Positions 23,019 through 34,597 of a DNA stretch of 64,000 nt are shown here, one piece after another. The notes beneath the pieces are model-generated. The model saw nothing but the letters and a program-made list of their open reading frames with translations. It was not told the origin of the DNA and did no database searches. Origin of the DNA: Chitinophaga vietnamensis (GTDB lineage: Bacteria > Bacteroidota > Bacteroidia > Chitinophagales > Chitinophagaceae); the NCBI RefSeq assembly GCF_902167635.1, contig NZ_CABHMS010000002.1:806001-870000 (forward strand). Reading direction: 5' to 3'. The translations under genes were made by a program, and so were the position numbers. The stretch's first letter is position 1, and each line of letters opens with the position of its first letter.

Positions 23019-23603
23019 TTAACTACAGATCCAGAGGAGCAGCAGGAAAGTGTTGAAATCCATTCGCGCCATGCAGAAGGCGCGGATAGAGCGCATGGCA
23101 TTGGCCAGGTGGACTTTGATGGTTTCCGGGGATAGTTGCAGGCGGGCGGCGATTTCATTTCTTTTCAGTCCTTCTTCTTTGCTGAGCTTATAGATCAGTT
23201 CCTGTTGAGGAGGGAGCTGTGCGATGGCCTTTTGTAATATCTGTTCATATTCTTTATACACCAGCAGGCTGTCTTTTACAGGGGGCAAGTCGGCCTTACT
23301 CAGTTCGGACTCCATGCGTTGTTGCCGCGCTATTAATTTAAGCGAGGTGAAGATATGGTTGCGGGCAGTAGTAAAGAGATACGCTTTGAAGTGGCTGATC
23401 TCATGCAGTTCCTGTCGCTTCAGCCATATTTTCATGAAGATATCCTGTACGGCATCTTCCGCCAGGGAAGCGCTGCCCAGCAGGTGCAGTGCGATAGCGT
23501 ATATGCGATGACGGTAGTGGTGAAAGAGCGGGACGAAAGCATCATCCTCGTTTTGGGCGAGCTTCAATAAAAGATTTCTTTCATTGTAAACAGTTATTTC
23601 CAT
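23019..23603 (-). CDS. ECF RNA polymerase sigma factor (Bacteroidota FecI-like)
   Basis: ATG 23603 gives MEITVYNERNLLLKLAQ; a start six codons earlier is possible. The 194-residue protein has sigma region 2 (AFVPLFHHYRHRIYAIA, then AEDAVQDIFMKIWLKR, the helix that contacts the core and -10 DNA) and region 4 (QLPPQQELIYKLSKEEGLKRNEIAARLQLSPETIKVHLANAM in outline) with its helix-turn-helix. It belongs to the sigma-70 family expansion typical of Bacteroidota polysaccharide loci. With the FecR and STN-SusC genes downstream it forms a trans-envelope signalling set predicted to induce the fucosidase locus when its glycan is bound. The extra C-terminal hydrophobic residues (FLLLLWICS) are unusual but short. 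Confidence 0.93.
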   Translation of the reverse strand: MEITVYNERNLLLKLAQNEDDAFVPLFHHYRHRIYAIALHLLGSASLAEDAVQDIFMKIWLKRQELHEISHFKAYLFTTARNHIFTSLKLIARQQRMESELSKADLPPVKDSLLVYKEYEQILQKAIAQLPPQQELIYKLSKEEGLKRNEIAARLQLSPETIKVHLANAMRSIRAFCMARMDFNTFLLLLWICS

Positions 23604-23777
23604 AAAGTGGTTGCAGTACAACTAAGTTAGGATATTCGGCAAGACAGAGTTGGGCGTAAATTCGCCAGCTATGATATTATTTTATCCTTCCGCTATGCCT
23701 GCTCCGGATCTCTTTTTAACGGGAATGGCTATACGTGAGCGTCTTTTGAGGGTTACATTTATTTTCTGCCACGAATA

Positions 23778-23808
23778 TTTGGAAGTTATTTTAGAATGAT
23801 TACCTTTG
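23778..23808 (+). promoter_or_regulatory. Promoter of tRNA-Lys (-33 TTTG, -7 TACCTTTG)
   Basis: TTTG at 23778-23781 and TACCTTTG at 23801-23808 are separated by 19 bp, a textbook Bacteroidota housekeeping promoter. Transcription would start near 23814, about 20 nt before the tRNA. Confidence 0.8.
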
Positions 23809-23833
23809 CACACCGTAAAATAAAGACGAGAAT

Positions 23834-23906
23834 GATTCCGTAGCTCAGTTGGTAGAGCAATACACTTTTAATGTATGGGCCCTGGGTTCGAGTCCCAGCG
23901 GGATCA
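23834..23906 (+). tRNA. tRNA-Lys (anticodon TTT)
   Basis: The full cloverleaf is visible over 73 nt: acceptor stem GATTCCG/CGGGATC with one T-G pair, D-arm GCTC/GAGC around AGTTGGTA, anticodon stem ATACA/TGTAT with loop CTTTTAA giving anticodon TTT, and T-arm CTGGG-TTCGAGT-CCCAG. The discriminator is A and CCA is not encoded. Its last 14 nt are repeated at 29992, marking it as the integration site of the island that follows. Confidence 0.97.
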
Positions 23907-24024
23907 CAGACAACTTACAAACCTCGCGCTGGTCGCGGGGTTTTGTTTTTTAGTTGAGCGTTTAGTCGAGTTCCTATTGTATAACCCCGATTTCTTTCCC
24001 GTACTTTATACAGGTTAATCAGCT
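23893..24024. repeat. Left att-like direct repeat (tRNA 3' end plus downstream terminator)
   Basis: This copy starts inside the tRNA T-arm (TCCCAGCGGGATC) and runs through the tRNA terminator to CAGGTTAATCAGCT. It matches 29992-30111 with two mismatches, and it carries 12 extra bases (GCGTTTAGTCGA) near 23957. The pair brackets a 6.1-kb AT-rich island. The match is far longer than a usual att core, so homologous duplication is an alternative to site-specific integration. Confidence 0.85.
23921..23951 (+). terminator. Intrinsic terminator of tRNA-Lys
   Basis: Stem ACCTCGCG / CGCGGGGT with a 5-nt loop (one G-T pair) is followed by TTTGTTTTTT. A second copy lies in the right repeat near 30020-30050. 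Confidence 0.8.
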
Positions 24025-24167
24025 TTTACTAAGATACGAAATATCCTTATTGGGATTTACGCATTCCACTATGTTTGCTATATTTTTAGTGTTTAAGTAA
24101 TGAACAGATAAATGGTTTTACATACTGCCCTAATTTTGTAAATTCATTGAAAATTCAATCTTGAAAC

Positions 24168-24929
24168 ATGCAGCAAGGAAATTGTAGACTTTGTACCAAA
24201 TTTGGTCAGTTGACATATGAACATGTCCCGCCTAAAGTAACCTTTAACAAAAATACCCGATATAAAAGTGTTCCTTTTTTGGATTACATGAAGATGCCGA
24301 ATCCTTTAGAAAGTAAGTTTAAAGGAAAGGTAGAACAAGGAGGTGTTGGTTATTATTCGTTGTGTGGTACTTGTAATAGTTTTTTAGGAAGTAACTATGT
24401 AAGATATTATCAGGAGTACTCAAATATGTTCATTCAGTTTGCAAAGAAAAAAGAATTTAACATGTTTGAATTCGCTATCCATAATTTCAATGCATTGAAT
24501 GTACTGAAACAAATTGTGTCGATGTTCTTTTCTATAAATGATGATACGTTTTCCAAAAATAATAGGGAGCTTGCAGAATTCGTACTTGACCCCAAATCCA
24601 ATAAATTCCCGAGCCAATTTAGAGTTTTTAACTACTTAAATACCGAGGGACAGCTTAGAAACGTCCCAGTGATGGCATTGGGTAATCTAAGTTCAAAAGG
24701 AGTGGTAGTAGGGACTGAATTAGCTTTTCCCCCTTTGGGACATATACTAACAATTGATTTTGACGGACAATTACCTTGCCATCAAGAGATAACTTCATTC
24801 AAGGATTATAAATTTGATGAAACTACTTCATTTGACTTCAAAGTTTACCGTCTACCGACATATCTCCCAATTTTACTGGACTATCGTGACAAAGAGACAA
24901 TTAAGAAGTCAATTGATGGATCATTATAG
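24168..24929 (+). CDS. HNH-like zinc-binding protein of the tRNA island
   Basis: The 253-residue protein opens with CRLCTKFGQLTYEHVPPKV: a CxxC pair followed by EHVPPK, the metal-binding start of HNH-type nucleases. A second CxxC (CGTCNSFLG, about residues 66-74) completes a four-cysteine zinc site like that of HNH_5-type domains. The remaining 170 residues match nothing I recognise. Whether the nuclease site is active is unclear, since a clear second histidine of the HNH triad is not obvious. The gene is AT-rich, unlike the flanking chromosome, and convergent with the next gene with a 18-bp gap. A TAATTTTG box (24131-24138) lies 30 bp upstream and may be its -7 element. A defence role is inferred from context only. 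Confidence 0.6.
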   Translation: MQQGNCRLCTKFGQLTYEHVPPKVTFNKNTRYKSVPFLDYMKMPNPLESKFKGKVEQGGVGYYSLCGTCNSFLGSNYVRYYQEYSNMFIQFAKKKEFNMFEFAIHNFNALNVLKQIVSMFFSINDDTFSKNNRELAEFVLDPKSNKFPSQFRVFNYLNTEGQLRNVPVMALGNLSSKGVVVGTELAFPPLGHILTIDFDGQLPCHQEITSFKDYKFDETTSFDFKVYRLPTYLPILLDYRDKETIKKSIDGSL

Positions 24930-24947
24930 CTGATAGCCATTGGATCT

Positions 24948-26534
24948 CTATTCTAAAAACTCAACTGACAATGTATTTATGGTGAAAAGTGATTTGAGAA
25001 GTATATCTGCTCCTACCTCACGGTAATTACTCCCCGTGATCTTAAAATATTCTATCGCCTTCTGACAGCTTTTGTTTGCATTGCTGAATCTATGTGCTAT
25101 CATTCCTGATCGCAGATTTTGCAGGTGTCGTAAGAACTCTAGTATATCAGGATGTACTACTCCTTTACTTCTAAGAAATCTTTCAAGTTTGCTAATACCT
25201 TTCTCATTTTCAACTTTTTCTAGCTCTTTAGTCAGCATCCCTTCGTTTAAGCTATCTATAGTAAATTTTACAACATTTAGCATTTGGTCACAGAATTCAC
25301 TAACACTTTCGTTTGCCGGTAGATGTAATGCTTCGAAATGCAACAAATCCGCTCCAACAGGAGTTTTGTAAAATTCCCATCCGAATTTTTTCACCCATTT
25401 TTTGTTGAATTCACTATATTCCTGTTTAAAACGGACATCAATAGCATCTGACTTTCGCGCCCAGTTCCCCATTATCATTGTATCGTAATACGAACCGCTA
25501 ATTCCCATTTCTGGAGATGGCGGAATATTATAGTGCTTCCAATGAAGTTGTTCTTTTTGAGGCAGCATTCTAAGATCATTTAGAAATACAACTACATAGT
25601 CATTGTTATTGTTATCAATTTTCAGGCTTAGGGCTTTGGATGTTAGACTAAACCCATCTACTGTATACTTTTCGGGATTACTGTAGTATTTCTGAAGTAC
25701 TTCTTTCTTAAAATAGACCGGTGTAAAGAATTTATGCTCTTCAGAATCGCATGGTACAGCTTTTTCTTCACCATCTTCATCATAACCTATTATAAAGGTT
25801 TCATGGTCAGTATTTTTATCATACCATGTTTTACCACTTTTTTTAGGGTCAAATGGTATTATTATTTTACCTAATATCCAACTTTGAAGATTTTTATTAT
25901 CCAAATATGGAATATATCTTATCAAGTGGTTGTAATTGGCATCGTTTGATACATAGTCTTTGTCTTGATATTTAGCATCATAGTCGCTTGGGGTTCCGGT
26001 GGCCATTACCATATACTCAAAGCATATTGAGAAATGAAGTTGCCTTATGGAAATATATTCCATTAAAAATTTTTTCTTTATACGAACATTAGTTCCGGTA
26101 ATTACTAATACTTCCTCAGTGTCACCAATTTCATTGAAAAAGATAAACGTCCTATCATTTTTAGAACCTTTTTCATACAATTGGAAATAGTTTACAAACT
26201 CCTCTGAAACATCAATGTATCTTTCGTCTATATGTGTGAAGTACTTATAATACAGAAAGGGCTCAAAATCTTTTTCCGAAAAGGATTGATAAATAGATTT
26301 CCACTCACCCTCTTCGTATTGTCCAATAATACAAGGTCTTCCTTCTTCGCCTTTGTGAATCCCCCATTGATGGCTTTTTAGATAATCTTTTAATGCTTCT
26401 GGTTTGACCAAGCAACAATAAAGACTATCATCTAAATCGCCCGGAGGTCTACATATATCTATCCAACCGTCTTTCGTAAATTTATTTTCAATTTCTTTAT
26501 ATGCTTTTATTAAATTAAAAGTGTCTTTTTCCAT
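24948..26534 (-). CDS. Unrecognised 528-residue island protein with C-terminal R-x5-H motif
   Basis: I do not recognise this family. The protein has no signal peptide or membrane segment. The first ~370 residues are rich in aromatic and acidic residues and look like a beta-rich domain (e.g. VLVITGTNVRIKKKF, YVVVFLNDLRMLPQKEQLHW). The last ~120 residues are helical and contain LRSGMIAHRFSNANK, where R-SGMIA-H fits the R-x4-6-H motif of HEPN ribonucleases, in a typical position between two helices. If HEPN, the protein could be a toxin-like RNase with a large sensor domain, as in several abortive-infection proteins. It is strongly AT-rich. It lies downstream of a small HEPN-like gene in the same orientation (116-bp gap containing a 7-bp hairpin at 26584-26602). 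Confidence 0.55.
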   Translation of the reverse strand: MEKDTFNLIKAYKEIENKFTKDGWIDICRPPGDLDDSLYCCLVKPEALKDYLKSHQWGIHKGEEGRPCIIGQYEEGEWKSIYQSFSEKDFEPFLYYKYFTHIDERYIDVSEEFVNYFQLYEKGSKNDRTFIFFNEIGDTEEVLVITGTNVRIKKKFLMEYISIRQLHFSICFEYMVMATGTPSDYDAKYQDKDYVSNDANYNHLIRYIPYLDNKNLQSWILGKIIIPFDPKKSGKTWYDKNTDHETFIIGYDEDGEEKAVPCDSEEHKFFTPVYFKKEVLQKYYSNPEKYTVDGFSLTSKALSLKIDNNNNDYVVVFLNDLRMLPQKEQLHWKHYNIPPSPEMGISGSYYDTMIMGNWARKSDAIDVRFKQEYSEFNKKWVKKFGWEFYKTPVGADLLHFEALHLPANESVSEFCDQMLNVVKFTIDSLNEGMLTKELEKVENEKGISKLERFLRSKGVVHPDILEFLRHLQNLRSGMIAHRFSNANKSCQKAIEYFKITGSNYREVGADILLKSLFTINTLSVEFLE

Positions 26535-26650
26535 ATATAAATTAATGATATATTATATGTACCAATGCAAAGTAGTACCCAAGTGCGCAGCATATCTGCG
26601 CATATATAAGTGAATTTAAGGCGTTTATTAGATATACTTGTTATATATGT

Positions 26651-27076
26651 CTATAATTGCATATGAGTCCAGAAATTTTTTATACGTCGATCAGTAGGTA
26701 AATGGCCTGTAATTAGTTGGTAATTGTTTATTGCTCCTATGATAAAGTCCTCAGCCTCAGATTGAAAATCGTGAGTAATATTATTATTCTCTCCTGAATC
26801 ATTGTGTTTAAGCTCATTCTTTATCCTGTTTCGCCTCCTCTGTACTCTCCCAATGGACGGTTGCGGTCTTTTGAAATATTGAGCCAGTTGATCAAAAAAA
26901 TACTTTTCATCAATTAAGGAGTTCCTGTTCGTTTGGTTTTTTGCTATTTGTCCGAGTATTTCTTCAGCTACGCCACCTAGTGTGATGGATGATATATAAT
27001 CACCTTTGTTATATAGTCCGATGGATGCTCGCAATTGAACTAATGCTACACCGATTTTGGTTATGCTCTGTTTCAT
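26651..27076 (-). CDS. Small HEPN-like island protein
   Basis: The 141-residue protein is all-helical in appearance. The segment LRASIGLYNKGDYISSITLGGVAEEIL resembles the first helices of HEPN-type proteins, and RIKNELKH (R-x6-H) sits where the HEPN catalytic motif is expected, preceded by a basic stretch RRRNR. No other domain is visible. HEPN proteins are RNA-cleaving toxins or their regulators in toxin-antitoxin, CRISPR and abortive-infection systems. The assignment rests on motif position and general pattern only. The gene is oriented with the 528-residue gene downstream and could be co-transcribed with it. Confidence 0.45.
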   Translation of the reverse strand: MKQSITKIGVALVQLRASIGLYNKGDYISSITLGGVAEEILGQIAKNQTNRNSLIDEKYFFDQLAQYFKRPQPSIGRVQRRRNRIKNELKHNDSGENNNITHDFQSEAEDFIIGAINNYQLITGHLPTDRRIKNFWTHMQL

Positions 27077-27292
27077 CTGGGAAAATTTAGGATGATATCA
27101 AAAACATGATCATTTTACCCTCTTATAAATAATGGGATTGAACTATAGCTGCTGTGTCTGTTATCCGACTAATATACGGGATATGATAATATTGTTAGGT
27201 ATTCATTAACAAAAATAAGCGTTGGGATATGATCTTCAAATTTGTAAATTTATATGCAGTAGAAAAATTTTGGAATCTAAATAATAAAGGAT

Positions 27293-27373
27293 ATGAGAAG
27301 TTTGAACATGAAGCAGTTGAAATCCTTTTTCACCTTTGATCTCCCCGTTAAATACTGTAAGTACCCCATCTAG
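27293..27373 (+). pseudogene. Possible small gene truncated by the IS element
   Basis: An ATG at 27293, preceded by AATAAAGGAT, opens a frame MRSLNMKQLKSFFTFDLPVKY that reaches the IS left end at 27356 exactly after 21 codons and then stops inside the IS (27371-27373). No matching continuation is visible beyond the right end of the IS. It may be the 5' remnant of an interrupted gene or chance. Confidence 0.3.
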
Positions 27374-27383
27374 GTAACAGCGA

Positions 27384-28157
27384 TTAATTGGAGTTTCTTG
27401 ATTTTTGCAACTCCGTTTTCCATTCGCAAGGCGTCATGTTCTTCAAAGATTCGTGGGGTCTTCTCTGGTTATATTCTTCGATCCAGACATCGGTTAATTC
27501 CCTTACCTGGTACAAGTCCTCAAAGATATAAGCATCCAGGACGGCTTCTCTGTAAAGACGATTAAATCGTTCGATATAACCATTCTGCATTGGTCGGCCT
27601 GGTTGAATGTATTGTAGCCTGATATCATGCTGATGGCACCACTGTTCAAAGTACGCGGAAGTGAACTCCGGGCCATTATCAGTTCTTATCGCGGCTGGTT
27701 TCCCTCGGTATTCAATAATTTTTTCCAATACCCGCACAATTCGGCATGAGGATAGTGAAGTATCGATTTCTATACCCAATACCTCCCGGGAGCCATCATC
27801 TATCACGTTAAATGTCCTGAAGCGTTTGTTTCCGGTCAGGCTATCACTCATGAAATCCATACTCCAGATGACATTAACATTGGTTTGCCGCTGCAATGGT
27901 TGTTTGATACGAGCTGGCACTCTCCGTTTGAGCTTCTTCCTCTTATTCAGTTTAAGCAGCCTGTATACCCGATATACTCGTTTATGATTCCAGTGGTGGC
28001 CGGCACGCCTCAAATAGGCAAATAGCTTGCGAAAGCCGTAGGAAGTATGCTTAAAAGCAAGGTCCTGAAGGGCATCAATCAGTACCTGGTCATTTCTACG
28101 ACTACGATAGTAAAACTTCGAACGGGGAAAGGAAACTATTCGACAGGCCCTGCTCAC
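27384..28157 (-). CDS. IS3-family transposase OrfB (DDE integrase)
   Basis: The catalytic protein has an HTH_21-like region (FKHTSYGFRKLFAYLRRAGH) and an rve integrase core with the DDE triad: first Asp in VIWSMDFMSD, second in IRTDNGPEFTS, and Glu in QNGYIERFNR, followed by the typical EEYNQRRPHESL tail. The listed start is a GTG at 28157, but the frame is open further upstream and joins OrfA by a -1 frameshift, so the functional product is probably the OrfAB fusion reading KRLGPSTKRQVAEELVADQG across the junction. The DDE motif is intact, so the element may be active. It is more GC-rich than the surrounding island. Confidence 0.9.
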   Translation of the reverse strand: MSRACRIVSFPRSKFYYRSRRNDQVLIDALQDLAFKHTSYGFRKLFAYLRRAGHHWNHKRVYRVYRLLKLNKRKKLKRRVPARIKQPLQRQTNVNVIWSMDFMSDSLTGNKRFRTFNVIDDGSREVLGIEIDTSLSSCRIVRVLEKIIEYRGKPAAIRTDNGPEFTSAYFEQWCHQHDIRLQYIQPGRPMQNGYIERFNRLYREAVLDAYIFEDLYQVRELTDVWIEEYNQRRPHESLKNMTPCEWKTELQKSRNSN

Positions 28158-28189
28158 AGAAACACCCTGATCTGCGACCAGTTCTTCTG

Positions 28190-28480
28190 CTACTTGTCTT
28201 TTTGTGGAAGGGCCCAGCCTTTTTTTGTGAATAGATCCTTCAGTATCTGATTGTCAAGGGACAGGTCAGCATACATTCTTTTGAGCCTGGAATTTTCTTC
28301 CTCCAGGTCTTTGAGGCGCTTCACATCTGAAGCCTCCATGCCTCCATACTTGCTTTTCCAGTTATAGAAAGTGGCTTCAGAAATGCCGTGTTCACGACAA
28401 ATGTCCTTTGTGGCAAGCCCGTTCTCCTGCTGCTTCAAAATAGACACAATCTGGGTTTCTGTGAATCTGGTCTTTTTCAT
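28190..28480 (-). CDS. IS3-family transposase OrfA (HTH)
   Basis: The 96-residue protein starts MKKTRFTETQIVSILKQ, has a Hin-like helix-turn-helix (TKDICREHGISEATFYNWK) and a leucine-zipper-like coil (KDLEEENSRLKRMYADLSLD). It binds the IS ends. An A7 run (T7 at 28220-28226 on the plus strand) within the last codons is the expected -1 slippery site leading into OrfB. Confidence 0.9.
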   Translation of the reverse strand: MKKTRFTETQIVSILKQQENGLATKDICREHGISEATFYNWKSKYGGMEASDVKRLKDLEEENSRLKRMYADLSLDNQILKDLFTKKGWALPQKDK

Positions 28481-28575
28481 GATGGTAGTTCAGTTTAAAT
28501 TTAACCTTTTTTATCTAAGTTTAAACTGTTACCAGAATAGGGATACTTACACCAGGGTGCGAATATGAAATATGA

Positions 28576-28620
28576 GTATAGCCAGCTGTTTTGGTATTAC
28601 CAAAACATAGCTGGCTATAC
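28576..28620 (-). terminator. Hairpin between the 264-residue gene and the IS
   Basis: Outer stem GTATAGCCAGCT (28576-28587/28609-28620) and inner stem GTTTTGGT (28588-28595/28599-28606) with a 2-nt bulge. It lies 20 bp past the stop at 28641, so it is probably that gene's terminator. Confidence 0.6.
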
Positions 28621-28640
28621 CAATATATTGTTCTAATTGA

Positions 28641-29435
28641 TCAAGATTTCACTTCATAAACTTCATGTAGATGATTCTCCAATCTTTCAATATGAGGGCG
28701 TAAAAATTCTTTACTATCAGAGTTGAAATCGTAAGCTAGTAATAAGAGGTCGCGTAATTGAAAGACCATCAGTACTATGCCTGTATTAATCTTGCTTATC
28801 CTGTTCTCTATGGGAATATCTTTGGATAGAGAAGTCCAATGGCTTAGATGATCATATTTCGAATAGAACGAATAAAGGTCATATACTTGGTCTTTTGTTA
28901 TTAGTGAGGGGTGGGTTGATTCTTTATAAAGATCTTTAATAACGACTTTGTAGCCTCTTTTAAGTTTAGGTTTTGCAAGACTAAGGTCGAAAGCTTCAGG
29001 AAATAGGCGGGCAAATTTCTTTGCTCGTATTTCTTTGTCAACTTCCGTTAGGTTACCATTATTAAAGATCTCTGTTATAAAATTTTCTGTGCCATCACTT
29101 ATAAATTTGTAACATAGATCATTTACCATACAAACTAATTCATTCCTATCTGTGCCTGAATATGAGAAAACACTGTTTTTTATTCTAATTACCATTAGTG
29201 AGTCCATCATCATTGACCTTATAAGAATACCTAATGGAAACTCCATTTCAGTGTCTGTATCAAGCTCATGATATAGTTTTTCTATAGCTATTGTAATTTT
29301 TCGCGCTTTTTCAACTCCGCAGAAAACAAACCGTAAAATGGTATCCTGATTTTTACTGGAAAAGTAATTCCGAGCAAGCAACGAGATACCTTTAATGATT
29401 GTGAGATGCTGAAGTGATGGGGTATTTACTTCCAT
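28641..29435 (-). CDS. Unrecognised 264-residue island protein, helical
   Basis: I do not recognise the family. The protein is soluble and helix-rich throughout. The pattern of scattered conserved-looking polar residues (RSMMMDSLMVIRIKN, FYSKYDHLSHWTS) is reminiscent of DUF5677-like or HEPN-related helical proteins, where a D..H/S..H pair lies in the last third, but no catalytic motif can be asserted. It is AT-rich, and is followed by a hairpin and the IS element. It is divergent from the small membrane protein gene at 29518 (82-bp gap), so the two may share a promoter region. Confidence 0.5.
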   Translation of the reverse strand: MEVNTPSLQHLTIIKGISLLARNYFSSKNQDTILRFVFCGVEKARKITIAIEKLYHELDTDTEMEFPLGILIRSMMMDSLMVIRIKNSVFSYSGTDRNELVCMVNDLCYKFISDGTENFITEIFNNGNLTEVDKEIRAKKFARLFPEAFDLSLAKPKLKRGYKVVIKDLYKESTHPSLITKDQVYDLYSFYSKYDHLSHWTSLSKDIPIENRISKINTGIVLMVFQLRDLLLLAYDFNSDSKEFLRPHIERLENHLHEVYEVKS

Positions 29436-29517
29436 TTATTCTTATTTAACATTAAGGAATACTGGAAGAAAACAGTGATCTATTAATAATTGTTTATTTT
29501 TATTAAAATGCTATGAG

Positions 29518-29835
29518 ATGAATAGGTCCCTGGTTTGGCTTCTAAAGGGAATTCTAATTGTGTTGTGTACAATCTGTCTATTCAGAATGCCTTATGGATA
29601 TTATGTTTTTTTTCGGTATGTTTCATTTGCCATATTTTCATTGTTTTGCATAGACACAATCAGTAGAAAACAAGTGAACCTTAGTATTGCTTGGGGGGTA
29701 TCTGCTTTAATGTGTAGCCCATTTGTGAAGCTTCCACTGGGAAGAACTATCTGGAATAGTATTGATATAATATGGATTATTATTATATTTGGCTCTTTAA
29801 TTTTTGACATTAGAACCCGAAAAGAGGAAAGATAA
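29518..29835 (+). CDS. Small membrane protein (DUF6804-like)
   Basis: The 105-residue protein has three or four hydrophobic segments: SLVWLLKGILIVLCTICLF, YVFFRYVSFAIFSLFCI, IAWGVSALMCSPFV and IDIIWIIIIFGSLIF, ending in a basic tail (RTRKEER). The RMPYGYYVFFRYV block after the first helix resembles the small membrane family DUF6804. Function is unknown; in the island it could be a membrane effector or an unrelated passenger. It is the last gene before the right att-like repeat. Confidence 0.5.
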   Translation: MNRSLVWLLKGILIVLCTICLFRMPYGYYVFFRYVSFAIFSLFCIDTISRKQVNLSIAWGVSALMCSPFVKLPLGRTIWNSIDIIWIIIIFGSLIFDIRTRKEER

Positions 29836-29991
29836 TAGTATTCATTCCTTATATTTATATTGTTATTAATTTTATCACTTTTTGAAAGCACGAATATTGG
29901 TCAAATAATAAATATTAGCATTGCGGTTAGCAATAAACGCTCAGCATTATCAGACGCAGATCTTACAAGGCATTACGAAAATATAACGTGC

Positions 29992-30111
29992 TCCCAGCGG
30001 GATCACAGACAACTTTCAAACCTCGCGCTGGTCGCGGGGTTTTGTTTTTTAGTTGAGTTCCTTTTGTATAACCCCGATTTCTTTCCCGTACTTTATACAG
30101 GTTAATCAGCT
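29992..30111. repeat. Right att-like direct repeat
   Basis: TCCCAGCGGGATC and the following 107 bases repeat the tRNA-Lys 3' end and its downstream region (23893-24024), with two mismatches and lacking 12 bases. Only the last 14 nt of the tRNA are present here, so it is a partial tRNA copy marking the distal island end. The region 29836-30297 otherwise contains no gene. Confidence 0.85.
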
Positions 30112-30241
30112 CAACACATTAAATCTTTCCATTCTTGTGATTGTGCGCTGGATAGTATGCTGGTTGAAGTGGATGCAGTTGCTTTTATGCCACCATAATG
30201 GTTTGCGCCGGAGGATGTTGTCTTTCTGGACTAACAAATAA

Positions 30242-30275
30242 AAAGGGCTGCGTACATTTTTGTACGCAGCCCTTT
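30242..30275 (-). terminator. Intrinsic terminator of the small exported protein gene
   Basis: Perfect 15-bp arms (30242-30256/30261-30275, core GGGCTGCGTACA) with a TTTT loop; minus-strand RNA ends in CCCTTTTTATTT. It lies 22 bp after the stop at 30298. Confidence 0.85.
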
Positions 30276-30297
30276 GTTGTTGTTTCGAAACTTTATC

Positions 30298-30660
30298 TTA
30301 AGATAGAATATCTACTTTAATATATCCGTTGGCGATATCACTCGCTGTTACGGTATGAAATTTTGCCAATGGAGAATTTAGGGTGTTCAGGCGGATGATA
30401 TCACCTTCCTGTACGGCCAGGTCGCATTCATAGATAGGGTCAAGTGAATCGGGAGTGGCTGTTGCGCCAGTGTTCATATTCGTTGCGGTATAGCTCAGAA
30501 TGGGCAGTATGGTTTCAATGCCGGCAATGGTTTGTGAAACACGTATTCTTACGGTTACACGGGCAACAGAAGTTACATGTTGAGCCTGAGTGGTAGCAAA
30601 TGAATTACTGCCGGTGATTGATAAGAGCATGAGCGTGGCGGCTAAAATAAGTGTTTTCAT
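30298..30660 (-). CDS. Small exported protein of unknown function
   Basis: The 120-residue protein has a Sec signal peptide (MKTLILAATLMLLSITGSNSFA) followed by about 98 residues of beta-strand-like sequence (VARVTVRIRVSQTI, CDLAVQEGDIIRLNT, ANGYIKVDILS). It contains a single cysteine in the mature part and no lipobox, so it should be periplasmic or secreted. I recognise no family. It is a single gene with its own terminator, directly beyond the tRNA island. Confidence 0.6.
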   Translation of the reverse strand: MKTLILAATLMLLSITGSNSFATTQAQHVTSVARVTVRIRVSQTIAGIETILPILSYTATNMNTGATATPDSLDPIYECDLAVQEGDIIRLNTLNSPLAKFHTVTASDIANGYIKVDILS

Positions 30661-30922
30661 ACAGATTGTTTTTAATGAGGGAATTGGGTTTGGGAGTAAA
30701 AATAGGTGGGAGTGCTGCGATGGGAAGGCTTTGGAGGTAATTTGCAGAAAAAAAGCGGCTCCGCTAGGGGGATAAGAAAATAATTGCGTAGTTATTGTGA
30801 TATCCTGCTAAATAGCAATTTATAAAGACGAAGAGTAGATACGATCTTTAAATTCCGGAACAATAGTTTCTCACAGTTAACCTGTCACCCCTATTTTATT
30901 AACCATTTAATCTCTCCAAAAA

Positions 30923-31885
30923 ATGAAAAAGAAAACCTATTGGCTCGTCACGCTTAACATAGCGCTAAGTCTCTTGTTTACTGCCTGTAACAAAAAAGAT
31001 TTAACTCCACCATTACATCCTGATACATCGACGCAAAGAATAAAAGAGCAGCTGGATTCTGTTGTCAGTGTCTGGAACCCGCGCGCTACAGTAGATCTGA
31101 AGTTAAAAGGATATACGCTCCAGGGAACGGATATCACAAGCGGCAATATTGCTGACATTAAACGGCAGTTGTCAAACGGTAATAATATTGTTCCATATTT
31201 TGATGGGCAAAATGTATCTTCTTTCAAATTAAATACACTGCACCAAAGCATCGCTTTGCAACGCGCTGCCGAACCTGCCGCTTTGAACAAGCTGGATCAG
31301 GATGCAGACAGCCGGTTCTCACGGACCATCAATAGCATAGTATTGCCTGGTCAGCATATTGCTACATTACAATGGGAAGCTCAGGGGCAGACGTTTACTT
31401 CTTTATGCATTTATGATGATAAAGGGCTTGTGTATGATCATGTGCTGGCTAACATGTTTCTGGCAAGTGATAGTACAAAACCCGAAGGGGATGAATTAAC
31501 CAGATTGTCTGACCAGCAAGGCCGCGCGCAGTCCCTGCAGTCTTATACGGCGCAGGTAGTGGATGTAACTATAAAATGGATATGGGGCAGCACACGGGGC
31601 AAGGTGAGGGTGTACCATAGCATTTTAGTAGATTGGAGCAACCGCAGTATTGTGAGCAATTGGGGCTCAAGTGATAACTACATGAGCATAGGCTCAGCAG
31701 ATTCACGGCAGAGCGATTACGGTAACCATCGTACTTATGCGCTGCTGTCATGGGCTTATGGATGGGCAACGCCAACCGCCAGCTTCAGCTTTTCGCATGA
31801 CGGAAGCAATAAATGGAGTGTATCCCTGAGTGGCGTAGGCTCCAAAGGAAGCGGACAAGGCATTCACAACTATTATCTGCAATAA
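30923..31885 (+). CDS. Lipoprotein of unknown function
   Basis: The 320-residue protein starts MKKKTYWLVTLNIALSLLFTAC, a lipoprotein signal with lipobox FTAC followed by NKKDL. The middle (about 45-200) is mixed alpha/beta. The C-terminal 110 residues (VTIKWIWGSTRGKVRVYHS to IHNYYLQ) are rich in Ser, Gly and aromatics and look like a beta-sandwich (WSNRSIVSNWGSSDNYMS, ASFSFSHDGSNKWSVSLSG). No family is recognised. It is a single gene followed by a hairpin at 31906-31960. Confidence 0.6.
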   Translation: MKKKTYWLVTLNIALSLLFTACNKKDLTPPLHPDTSTQRIKEQLDSVVSVWNPRATVDLKLKGYTLQGTDITSGNIADIKRQLSNGNNIVPYFDGQNVSSFKLNTLHQSIALQRAAEPAALNKLDQDADSRFSRTINSIVLPGQHIATLQWEAQGQTFTSLCIYDDKGLVYDHVLANMFLASDSTKPEGDELTRLSDQQGRAQSLQSYTAQVVDVTIKWIWGSTRGKVRVYHSILVDWSNRSIVSNWGSSDNYMSIGSADSRQSDYGNHRTYALLSWAYGWATPTASFSFSHDGSNKWSVSLSGVGSKGSGQGIHNYYLQ

Positions 31886-31905
31886 TTCCGGGGTTTGAAG
31901 GTCGT

Positions 31906-31960
31906 ATCAAAGGAAAAGCCTCCATGTTTCGTCATGAAACAAGGAGGCTTTCCTTTTGAT
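31906..31960 (+). terminator. Hairpin downstream of the lipoprotein gene
   Basis: Arms ATCAAAGGAAAAGCCTCC (31906-31923) and GGAGGCTTTCCTTTTGAT (31943-31960) pair with a slip in the A-tract; the loop itself folds (GTTTC/GAAAC). It is 20 bp past the stop at 31885. Confidence 0.7.
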
Positions 31961-32322
31961 GTACTGCTAAGGAGTGATTCCTTGGATGGGCTGGTCAGAA
32001 ATTTTGAAACCAATGGTTTTAGCGGGATAGCGGTCTTGTCCGCCGCGAGCCATAGGAAGGCCGCGGTGGGCAATGTACGGATCCCTGAACTTAGGAGGAT
32101 TCCCATTGGTTCAGCAAGAATCTCTCACAAATCTATTTTTTTAAATGTCTTAGGAACTCCCAATAGCCGTGGGAATTTCATCTTTCCATAGCTTAACCTA
32201 ATCTCCGGCGTAACCAACTTTAAATTAAAAGAACTAACGCTTCAATTCGGGCAGACTGATGAAAGAAAGTGTCTATTTAATGCTTTATCTTGTGGCAGTT
32301 GAATCGATTGCTATTTTTGATT

Positions 32323-33366
32323 ATGTCTGTTAGATTTTTATTCCTCCTGATTGGTTTGCTTTTTTGTGCTCATACTGCGAAATGCCAGTATGGCTGGATT
32401 AAGCAGAAAGAAGAACTTTTGTTTGAGGCGCCTCCGTTTAAGGCCTGTCATGCTTCCACTATTACATCCATTGCCGGAAAACGATTGCTGGTAGCCTGTT
32501 TTGGCGGGGCGTATGAGGGTAGTAAAGATGTCGGGATCTGGGCCGGCGTGATTGGAAAAGACGGGAAAGTGATTCCAAAGGAGATAGCCACGGGGAAAGT
32601 GAATGATACCTTACAGTATCCCTGCTGGAATCCTGTGTTATTACAATTGAAAAACCGGCAACTGGTGTTGTTCTATAAAGTGGGGCCTAATCCAAGGGAA
32701 TGGTGGGGGATGATGAAAACCTCTGATGACAATGGCCGGAGCTGGTCTGCAGCAAAAAAATTACCGGAACATATTGTGGGGCCGGTAAAAAATAAAGCGG
32801 TACTGCTGAAGAATGGAACCATTCTTTGTCCTTCCAGTACAGAGGCCCGGGATGGCCGATGGAGAGTGCAGGTGGAGAAAACGGATATCACTTTCCGGGA
32901 TTGGAAAATCATCCCGGTAGACACAGCAGGCGCTTTTGATGTGATACAGCCGAGTATTCTTTTCTATGGAAAAGATAGTTTACAGTTGTTATGCAGAAGC
33001 AGGCAGGGGAATGTAATACAGTCCTGGTCGTATGATAATGGCGATAGTTGGTCAGCGTTATCACGCACCGGTTTACCGAATCCAAATTCAGGCACCGATG
33101 CAGTTACCTTAAAAGATGGGCGGCAGTTGATTGTGTACAATCCTGATTTACCAGGTAAAGAGTGGTTCAATGGCCGTGCCAGGCTACGCGTAGCTTCTTC
33201 TGTGGACGGTCTTCACTGGGAAGATATCATAACCCTGGAAAACGGTACCAATGAAGAGTTCAGCTATCCAGCCATTATTCAGACAGAAGATGGATTGGTA
33301 CATATTACCTATACCTACGACCGTAAAAATATCAAGCATGTGATATTGCAAGAGAAGAAAAAATAG
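32323..33366 (+). CDS. Exported sialidase-like BNR-repeat protein
   Basis: ATG 32323 is chosen because it starts a clean signal peptide (MSVRFLFLLIGLLFCAHTAKC); the longer frame begins with TTG at 32290. The protein is a six-bladed propeller of the BNR/sialidase superfamily. Asp-box-like turns are visible: SDDNGRSWSAAKK (about residue 135 of the protein) and SYDNGDSWSAL (about 235). Other typical segments are CHASTITSI near the first blade, YPCWNPVLLQL, and NEEFSYPAIIQTEDGLVHITYTY near the end. In this subfamily the enzymes may be exo-alpha-sialidases or related glycosidases acting outside the cell; the arginine triad of true GH33 enzymes was not confirmed. No SusC/SusD neighbour is present. 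Confidence 0.78.
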   Translation: MSVRFLFLLIGLLFCAHTAKCQYGWIKQKEELLFEAPPFKACHASTITSIAGKRLLVACFGGAYEGSKDVGIWAGVIGKDGKVIPKEIATGKVNDTLQYPCWNPVLLQLKNRQLVLFYKVGPNPREWWGMMKTSDDNGRSWSAAKKLPEHIVGPVKNKAVLLKNGTILCPSSTEARDGRWRVQVEKTDITFRDWKIIPVDTAGAFDVIQPSILFYGKDSLQLLCRSRQGNVIQSWSYDNGDSWSALSRTGLPNPNSGTDAVTLKDGRQLIVYNPDLPGKEWFNGRARLRVASSVDGLHWEDIITLENGTNEEFSYPAIIQTEDGLVHITYTYDRKNIKHVILQEKKK

Positions 33367-33389
33367 ATTGACCTGTTTCATCTGCCCTT

Positions 33390-33608
33390 TTAAGAATTTC
33401 CGCTGATGAAGGAGTGTTCAATTGGAAACCTGCCAGGCCATTTGGGAGCTGGCTTAAAATGATCAAATGGAATTCCGGCGGAGTCATAATAAGGCTCCAC
33501 CGAATAAAGTTTTAACAAGTAAGTATAGGGAAGTTGGCCATGCGCAAAAGGAAACTCCGAAGTAAAAGTCTCATGAAAAAATATGACGGCGTTCTGCCAA
33601 TGGAAGCA
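33390..33608 (-). pseudogene. 72-codon open frame directly after, and in frame with, the VapA-like gene's TGA
   Basis: After the TGA stop at 33609-33611 the same frame continues open for 72 codons to a TAA at 33390-33392. The translation is protein-like (e.g. TFTSEFPFAHGQLPYTYLL, PFDHFKPAPKWPGRFPIE) and has no internal ATG start. It may be a C-terminal domain cut off by a nonsense mutation, a readthrough extension, or a chance open frame. Confidence 0.35.
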
Positions 33609-34043
33609 TCATGACCAGCTGCCTTTCCCTCCGCCAGTGCCGACACAGGTGGCTATTCCACCTCCTTGATAACTGCCCAGAAACTTGTGGTTCGAGTTAA
33701 AGAAATTAACATTCAGATAAACGCCGGCTCCGTTAAACTGGAACGCGTCTGTTGTTGACTGTAGCTCGTCTAGGGTTACACCGCTGGCAAGATAAATATC
33801 GCCATGTGTGGAGCCGCCGCCTGCGCCGCCAATAGCACCGGCGTTTCCGACGAACTGTTTACCATTGCAGTCTAAAGTAATTCTCCAGTAAAAAATGGCG
33901 CATACGAATGATCCCTTGGCAGGAACTGCATTGCTGCCTGATCTGATGGTGTCAAGGCAAGCATTCAGTTCAATATCACTGGTTTTCCCTTTAAGGAATG
34001 TACTTGCAGCAGCCGCGGCTGCATTTCTGTTTTCAGTTGTCAT
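33609..34043 (-). CDS. VapA-like small beta-barrel protein
   Basis: The 144-residue protein has no signal peptide; it begins with an alanine-rich helix (NRNAAAAAASTFLKG). The C-terminal 90 residues are glycine-rich beta structure. The block VYLNVNFFNSNHKFLGSYQGGG followed by GGGKGSW resembles the conserved C-terminal core of VapA/VapB-family virulence-associated proteins, which form a compact eight-stranded barrel. The match is from memory of the family pattern and not conclusive. Cysteines at about 29, 48, 59 and 134 suggest a possible disulfide. It lies in an AT-rich accessory stretch, with an in-frame open extension after its stop codon (33390-33608). Confidence 0.45.
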   Translation of the reverse strand: MTTENRNAAAAAASTFLKGKTSDIELNACLDTIRSGSNAVPAKGSFVCAIFYWRITLDCNGKQFVGNAGAIGGAGGGSTHGDIYLASGVTLDELQSTTDAFQFNGAGVYLNVNFFNSNHKFLGSYQGGGIATCVGTGGGKGSWS

Positions 34044-34597
34044 AACATTAATATTAGTTTGATTAAATTATTCCGGTGGTGCACACACCGAATGTTTTTG
34101 CTGTTAATTCTACTATTGTAAAATTCTATATTGATGATTAAACCCGGAAGGTGGAAATTGACTTTTCAGCGGGCGTCTTTTCAGGATAGGATAATGATGG
34201 TAAATAGAGTAGGGAAAAATAGATGGTGGCCTTACGTCCTTTGAAGAACAGCAGCATGAGTAAAACAACGCCATGAACCATTTGGGTGCTTTCGGGGAAT
34301 ACAGCCCCTGAAAATCAAAAATTTACTAAACCTTCTGCTTTTTTTATTGTTGTACTTTCTGTAAAACATACTATTGTAATGGGAGTATAGCCAGGTAAAT
34401 AAAAAGGTATTTTCTTCTTCCACAGTTTTAAATGATTTTATAACCTGAAGAACACCGGAAAACGGCGCGCCAGCGTGCGTGCTGGGAACCCCTTTGCTGG
34501 ATTGTCATATGTATGCTCGTTGGTCCCCCGGGTATAAACAGAATCATTGTTGCAATGACGGCAGGTCTGTTAATATTTTCTCCAAATATTAAAGCTT
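34044..34597. other. 554-bp region without a recognisable gene
   Basis: The stretch between the divergent VapA-like gene and the giant adhesin gene is AT-rich and contains only short frames without protein-like features. It should hold the promoters of both genes, but no clear TTTG/TAnnTTTG pair was found. Confidence 0.4.

Follow-up and report, generated by a model that had tools for sequence, protein, structure and literature searches.

A tRNA-Lys island of Chitinophaga vietnamensis is probably the remnant of a tandem array of two integrative element families

The elements Tn4399, Tn4555, NBU1 and NBU2 carry tyrosine integrases. Passages of a review (PMC5704250) place these four among the integrative and mobilizable elements (IMEs) of Bacteroidetes with a MobP relaxase. 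The passages drawn on here also treat CIMEs and the tandem accretion of ICEs and IMEs, citing work on ICESt1 from S. thermophilus and, for S. agalactiae, a composite of IMEs at tRNA-Lys (PMC5704250). For the ssrA islands of Dehalococcoides, the sections of a second source used here (PMC3146451) give a 20-bp repeat and insertion in the T loop, which we count as a likeness to the locus presented below. Islands formed by accretion and decay of integrative elements are already known, and the island described here is a further case. Among the papers searched, none has Chitinophaga together with the term "integrative and mobilizable element".

The window, that is, the whole 64-kb stretch of C. vietnamensis DNA that we analyzed, contains tRNA-Lys(TTT) as its only tRNA according to ARAGORN. 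A direct repeat begins within the last 15 nt of this gene: positions 23893-24024 (132 nt) recur at 29992-30111 (120 nt), with 2 substitutions and one 12-nt gap in a global alignment, a match far above chance (E 2e-46). A previous interpretation made from the letters of the window, the sequence-only reading, had described 14 nt of the tRNA and ~106 bases as repeated, with two mismatches and a 12-base difference. The substitutions and the gap stand, while the tRNA contributes 15 nt, not 14. The proposed entry of an element at the 3' end of the tRNA agrees with our data, as a displaced 15-nt tRNA fragment is present at the far end of the island. The same holds for the suggestion that the repeat carries a tRNA terminator, since the arm contains a terminator-like hairpin. 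The ~117 nt beyond the tRNA, judged by sequence, reads as the left arm of an element of family A (see below), not as an att core. A core search of the window for a third site that would close a second element found the two exact sites only; two 3-mismatch sites on the other strand were rejected, with 1.3 matches expected by chance.

Table 1 Features of the tRNA-Lys island (window positions) and of mini-elements at other loci.
Feature	Position	Strand	Remarks
tRNA-Lys(TTT), intact, insertion target	23834..23907	+	ARAGORN
Proximal core TCCCAGCGGGATCAC	23893..23907	+	Two exact copies in the window, this one and the distal core
Family-A left arm DA: terminator hairpin and two TTTAGTYGAG repeats (23949-23958, 23961-23970)	23908..24035	+	Unit shared by many relatives, behind tRNA-Lys
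Cargo, A side, 253-aa protein, HNH-like by Cys/His motifs only	24168..24929	+	Pfam HNH_5 E 0.11, below cut-off
Cargo, A side, 528-aa protein, no family match	24948..26534	-	A single relative (56%), from another genus
Cargo, A side, 141-aa protein, no family match	26651..27076	-	
P239 relic, start of family-A gene	27277..27355	+	Cut at left IS edge
IS3-family insertion sequence, 1196 bp	27356..28551	-	OrfB 27384-28157, OrfA 28190-28480
Palindrome otherwise seen in family-C elements	28572..28621	.	
Cargo, C side, 264-aa protein, no family match	28641..29435	-	
Cargo, C side, DUF6804 protein	29518..29835	+	Pfam E 9e-20
Family-C right end U2	29917..29991	+	
Distal core	29992..30006	+	Exact copy of the 15-nt tRNA-Lys core
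Second family-A left arm, single TTTAGTTGAG at 30048-30057	30007..30111	+	Read as orphan end of a further element
Mini-elements	L088 3585-5081, L091 4100-5460, L105 10635-12916, L106 14722-16116		Genes of 336, 336, 571 and 336 aa

The DNA between the repeat copies has been taken for AT-rich and foreign, and its composition bears this out: GC is 35% (33% without the IS) versus 50% in the two 10-kb flanks. The 4.4 kb that follow the distal copy on its right (30112-34500) are likewise GC-poor, at 44%. This stretch contains two genes with relatives elsewhere in the genus (L046, L047) and no closing core.

Seven notable coding regions lie in the island, five cargo genes and the two frames of the IS3 copy. 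A Pfam scan of ten proteins, encoded in the island or next to it on the right, detected no recombinase domain save the DDE domain of the IS3 transposase, in line with the earlier finding that no integrase is recognizable. Integrase and relaxase are absent from the island, where a 79-nt relic of one family-A gene (P239) is all that is left; the genes for integration and transfer have thus been lost, as in a CIME. The 253-aa cargo protein has remote plasmid relatives (12 records, all below 60% identity), whereas a search of the plasmid collection gave no relatives of the 264-aa protein. The 528-aa protein is matched in 5 of 294 genomes of the family, the own genome included and 3 of the matches marginal. 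Searches of NCBIfam and PDB returned nothing usable for the cargo. A defense function was considered with PADLOC and rejected: the sole match, although strong (E 3e-39, window 28190-28480), is of a "DrmC" model to OrfA of the IS3 copy. Since Pfam gives HTH_Tnp_1 for the same protein, we take the label to be that of a mislabeled transposase model.

Three element families use tRNA-Lys in related genomes, and the part they have in common is the 15-17 nt core only. In the loci then fetched, 111 core sites were counted at no more than 2 mismatches, 64 of them inside a tRNA and the other 47 distal. By the sequence that precedes them, the distal cores group as U0 (13), U1 (9) and U2 (3), plus two pairs and singletons. 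Family A has the right end U0 with a 455-aa integrase. A complete element of this family (L100 in genome G041) begins with the tRNA unit and the arm. Cargo and P239, a protein of 239 aa, come next, then HTH and NikA/MobC-like proteins, a relaxase of the MobA/VirD2 type (PF03432) and further small proteins; a PF00589 tyrosine integrase on the opposite strand closes the element. Family B combines U1 with the arm D1; in its integrase-bearing case (G018) the integrase is located beside the tRNA (L095) and U1 follows ~25 kb on (L096). Family C combines U2 with the arm DC and a ~415-aa integrase beside the tRNA, ~50% identical to the B integrase. Hairpins in the left arms reach -17.0 (DA), -24.2 (D1) and -25.9 kcal/mol (DC), and those in the DNA that follows the distal core in L101 and in L102 reach -14.9 and -19.7 kcal/mol, all for stretches of different length.

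The arms in the loci compared carry one or two TTTAGTYGAG repeats. A pair of these repeats also adjoins the integrase at the opposite end of the element, with variants in L104, L105 and L108, and the repeats are presumed to be integrase arm sites. The 12-nt difference between the repeat copies was considered as a mark of element-borne versus chromosomal copies and discarded, as one- and two-repeat arms are found at both tRNA-adjacent and distal sites. Behind the 13 distal cores that follow U0, the next cluster holds a D1 arm in 4 (L105-L108) and untyped DNA in 3 (L101, L102, L103); other clusters follow in 4. A cluster with the family-A arm is next in only 2 (L048/L100, L090), so the repeated part in the family at large is only the core of 15-17 nt.

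One scan of named genomes detected relatives of the A integrase at 30 loci. Seven, all from Chitinophaga, have a tRNA-Lys core upstream of the integrase gene (0-2 mismatches). In 12, which come from other genera or from MAGs, the locus contains a tRNA-Asp; one has a tRNA-Cys, and 10, including two from Chitinophaga, have none of these. In C. vietnamensis itself, a tRNA-Asp (contig C1, L012 6507-6646) is followed by an A-like arm stretch with AAGTCGAG and TTTAGTCTAG repeats. The stretch is a possible trace of a tRNA-Asp sister element, which would fit the tRNA-Asp relatives. Mini-elements (1.4-2.3 kb) whose two ends match as D1-U1 contain no integrase and one long gene each (Table 1); they look like helper-dependent cassettes.

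The two ends of the window island are of different types. The left arm is DA, while the distal core is preceded by U2, which occurs at 22 or more places in 17 of the 79 genomes, the own genome included (at least 21 further places in 16 other genomes). The interior is divided in the same manner by the IS. On its left side, the P239 relic (79 nt) is found at 80-97% identity in 13 loci (12 distinct places), with 21 codons at 95%, and the matches stop at 27355 or one base before. The palindrome on the right side recurs at 7 other places, all with U2 downstream; 6 have DC upstream and one is the mixed locus L092. It was not matched in 4 of the 9 matched C intervals (L169, L172, L173, L183). By these sequences, the island appears to be family A to the left of the IS and family C to the right, and not one element, with the right-hand cargo placed in family C by position only. 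The view of a single element between two att repeats does not hold, as the attL and attR of one element are not retained.

The IS belongs to the IS3 family, with an HTH domain in OrfA (PF01527), DDE domains in OrfB (PF00665 and PF13683) and terminal inverted repeats TGTAAGTA..., and has two identical further copies in the genome. No target duplication flanks the window copy. One of the other own copies has the duplication GATTA and a copy in G061 has ATTG; since the remaining own copy also lacks one, its absence in the window is weak evidence for a deletion made by the IS.

We compared the same tRNA locus in relatives, using one genome per species. Nine relatives were fetched of the 11 that carry the window's sigma-factor gene among the matches listed, and in these a tRNA-Lys follows 4.8-11.8 kb on; in the window the distance is 212 bp (23622-23833). 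The window tRNA is therefore probably the same locus with the spacer lost. In this comparison for an empty site, DC lies directly behind the tRNA-Lys in 2 relatives (G023, G039), D1 in 1 (G020), a DA-like arm in 1 (G075, 73%) and none of the three in 5 (G066, G060, G003, G040, G059), and the right flank is not conserved. A terminator resembling that of family A is present there in G003, G040 and G059 (unit 1-117 at 84-87%), and a core with an A arm lies within 200 nt behind the tRNA-Lys in G040 and G059. Chitinophaga sp. Ak27 (G059, L104) has, at what appears to be the orthologous tRNA, an A-like element with the P239 start and an integrase 64% identical to that of L100; DC and an integrase of the C type come immediately after it, ahead of the contig end. 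The right end of this A-like element is untyped and its arm repeat a variant, and the C neighbor runs off the contig. A single internal deletion could turn this A-C order into the window island.

We consider it very likely that the island is a collapsed tandem A-C array, a cargo-only fusion of two elements. Beside the tRNA, the array would have held a family-A integrative-mobilizable element with the left arm DA, cargo, P239, mobilization genes and a tyrosine integrase at the right end U0. A family-C element would have come next, with the left arm DC and its integrase, the palindrome, cargo and the right end U2, and behind it one more family-A left arm, from a further element. The IS3 copy would now mark the place of a deletion that extended from inside the P239 gene of A to the palindrome of C. 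This deletion would have removed the mobilization and integrase genes of A, the A/C junction core and the left arm of C with its integrase, and kept the cargo of both parents and the two outer cores. The long direct repeat would then represent two family-A left arms, each with its own tRNA terminator. The deletion may have been a single event, in which the IS may have had a role.

The island could instead be one non-autonomous element with working ends, a CIME or a trans-mobilized island that is excised by an integrase from elsewhere; mobilization in trans had already been raised in the sequence-only reading. Both cores are exact and each arm resembles the arms of its own family, which would suit such an element; the ends, by contrast, come from two different families, and the P239 relic and the IS occupy the middle of the island. 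The pairing of ends in other loci bears on this question. The 37 core-to-core intervals comprise 21 with matching ends (DC-U2 9, DA-U0 8, D1-U1 4), 5 with mixed ends and 11 with an untyped end. The mixed ones are DA-U2 in three genomes (the window, L092 in G061 and L174 in G012) and DA-U1 in two loci (L089, L093). An integrase match, whole or partial, is present in 13 of the 21 intervals with matching ends and in none of the 5 mixed ones (Fisher two-sided p 0.039), where a 62-aa scrap in L093, kept in its row by the filter, is counted as none; including it gives 1 of 5. A tblastn match of more than 40 aa inside the interval was scored as an integrase, with INT455 matches below 40% identity ignored and partial genes such as those in L127 and L171 counted as present. 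The test used fetched loci of at least 5500 bases, leaving out L096 and the loci from L187 on, and some of the loci overlap or repeat a place (L048/L100, L063/L104). Presence of the repeat, an integrase or U2 was the ground for choosing the loci, which are thus no random sample, and the reference arms DA and U2 come from the window itself; we therefore regard the test as support for the collapsed array and not as proof. Elements with matching ends and no integrase match do exist (DA-U0 in L135 and L139; DC-U2 in L172 and L183; D1-U1 in L088, L091, L105 and L106), as a non-autonomous element would lead one to expect.

A source of integrase for excision would also be needed from elsewhere. The own genome has three PF00589 matches, none near the island and none of them a family-A or family-C integrase. 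Those of 109 and 153 bits are taken for Xer enzymes, and the third (28.5 bits) belongs to a gene of ~366 aa beside a tRNA-Leu in L099. Altogether, we judge a non-autonomous element with working ends to be an unlikely explanation. Similarly improbable is that the mixed-end islands (DA-U2, DA-U1) are genuine chimeras, mobilized by the joint action of integrases from two families, although the recurrence of DA-U2 ends outside the window makes a mobile chimera possible. Under the chimera reading, three families with different arms and their own terminators at one core of 15-17 nt would make the arrays a shared dock where neighbors recombine. For the collapsed array, the unlike arms and the lack of a matching integrase among the PF00589 matches of the genome imply that the fused unit is most likely fixed in place.

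The repeat itself is widespread in the genus. In the genus scans, which scored the first 5 (query 23019-24040), the first 4 (query 29980-31900) and up to 11 (tRNA-Lys, U2) candidates per genome and thus give lower bounds for copy numbers, query 29980-31900 was matched in 47 of 79 genomes, mostly via its repeat part, and near-identical tRNA-Lys genes numbered up to at least 11 per genome. The 120-nt distal copy was matched in 33 of 33 genomes, the own included, all picked because earlier scans had shown matches; the highest count in one genome was 18 (G018). Among the matches listed for query 23019-24040, many places are 90-97% identical over the tRNA and ~115 nt beyond, but the neighboring sigma-factor gene has only 68-75% DNA identity in 11 relatives. 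Non-coding DNA that follows tRNA-Lys genes at many places and is more conserved than coding sequence has the look of a spreading element arm. The sequence-only reading had held that a widespread dispersed repeat would speak against integration; the repeat is literally dispersed in the genus, but the dispersal is itself the trace of an element family. Within a genome, the matches can lie on one strand, as in G018 (18 of 18, C2), G061 (12 of 12, C1) and G031 (8 of 8, C1), and also in G019 (12 of 12) and G041 (8 of 8) over several contigs of arbitrary orientation; strands are mixed in G013, G017 and G054.

It is very improbable that the long repeat has nothing to do with site-specific integration and arose when tRNA-Lys paralogues underwent homologous duplication or gene conversion. 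The own genome does have at least 5 identical tRNA-Lys genes, one of which (C2:146534) is followed by a similar stretch (86% over 162 nt). However, the distal copy begins in the T arm, as it does elsewhere (mostly at unit position 58-60, range 54-68), and the right end before it is common to other species. A prophage or phage-satellite remnant is hardly credible. The tRNA target might point to one, as might weak matches of two cargo proteins (253 aa and 264 aa) to PHROGs without an assigned function, but none of the cargo proteins scanned belongs to a structural or replication family. Neither the plasmid nor the phage collection contains a match to the repeat (E 1e-5), and the exact arm pattern is absent from viral_contigs.

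A long "att repeat" can mislead: here it is for the most part an arm brought in by an element, which supplies the tRNA with a new terminator. Two family-A arms would betray a past tandem array. Typed ends (DA/U0, D1/U1, DC/U2) offer a simple reading of the history of tRNA-Lys islands across Chitinophaga, and help to tell islands that may be movable from dead ones.

Intact family-A relatives resemble the MobP IMEs named above in having a relaxase, a small mobilization protein and an integrase; the window island differs in having lost all three. Like the Dehalococcoides ssrA islands, as portrayed in the sections used (PMC3146451), the Chitinophaga elements form tandem islands behind one RNA gene, many in number and some without integration genes. 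The ssrA islands depend on a serine recombinase there, while the Chitinophaga elements have tyrosine recombinases, belong to at least three families and occupy several tRNA-Lys loci per genome. The accretion of ICEs and IMEs is a close parallel in the passages cited: elements with distantly related integrases gather at one site in tandem and lose their integration and transfer genes (PMC5704250). A CIME in the sense of those passages keeps both attL and attR (PMC5704250), whereas the ends of the window island come from different families, which would make it a fused pair of half-elements.
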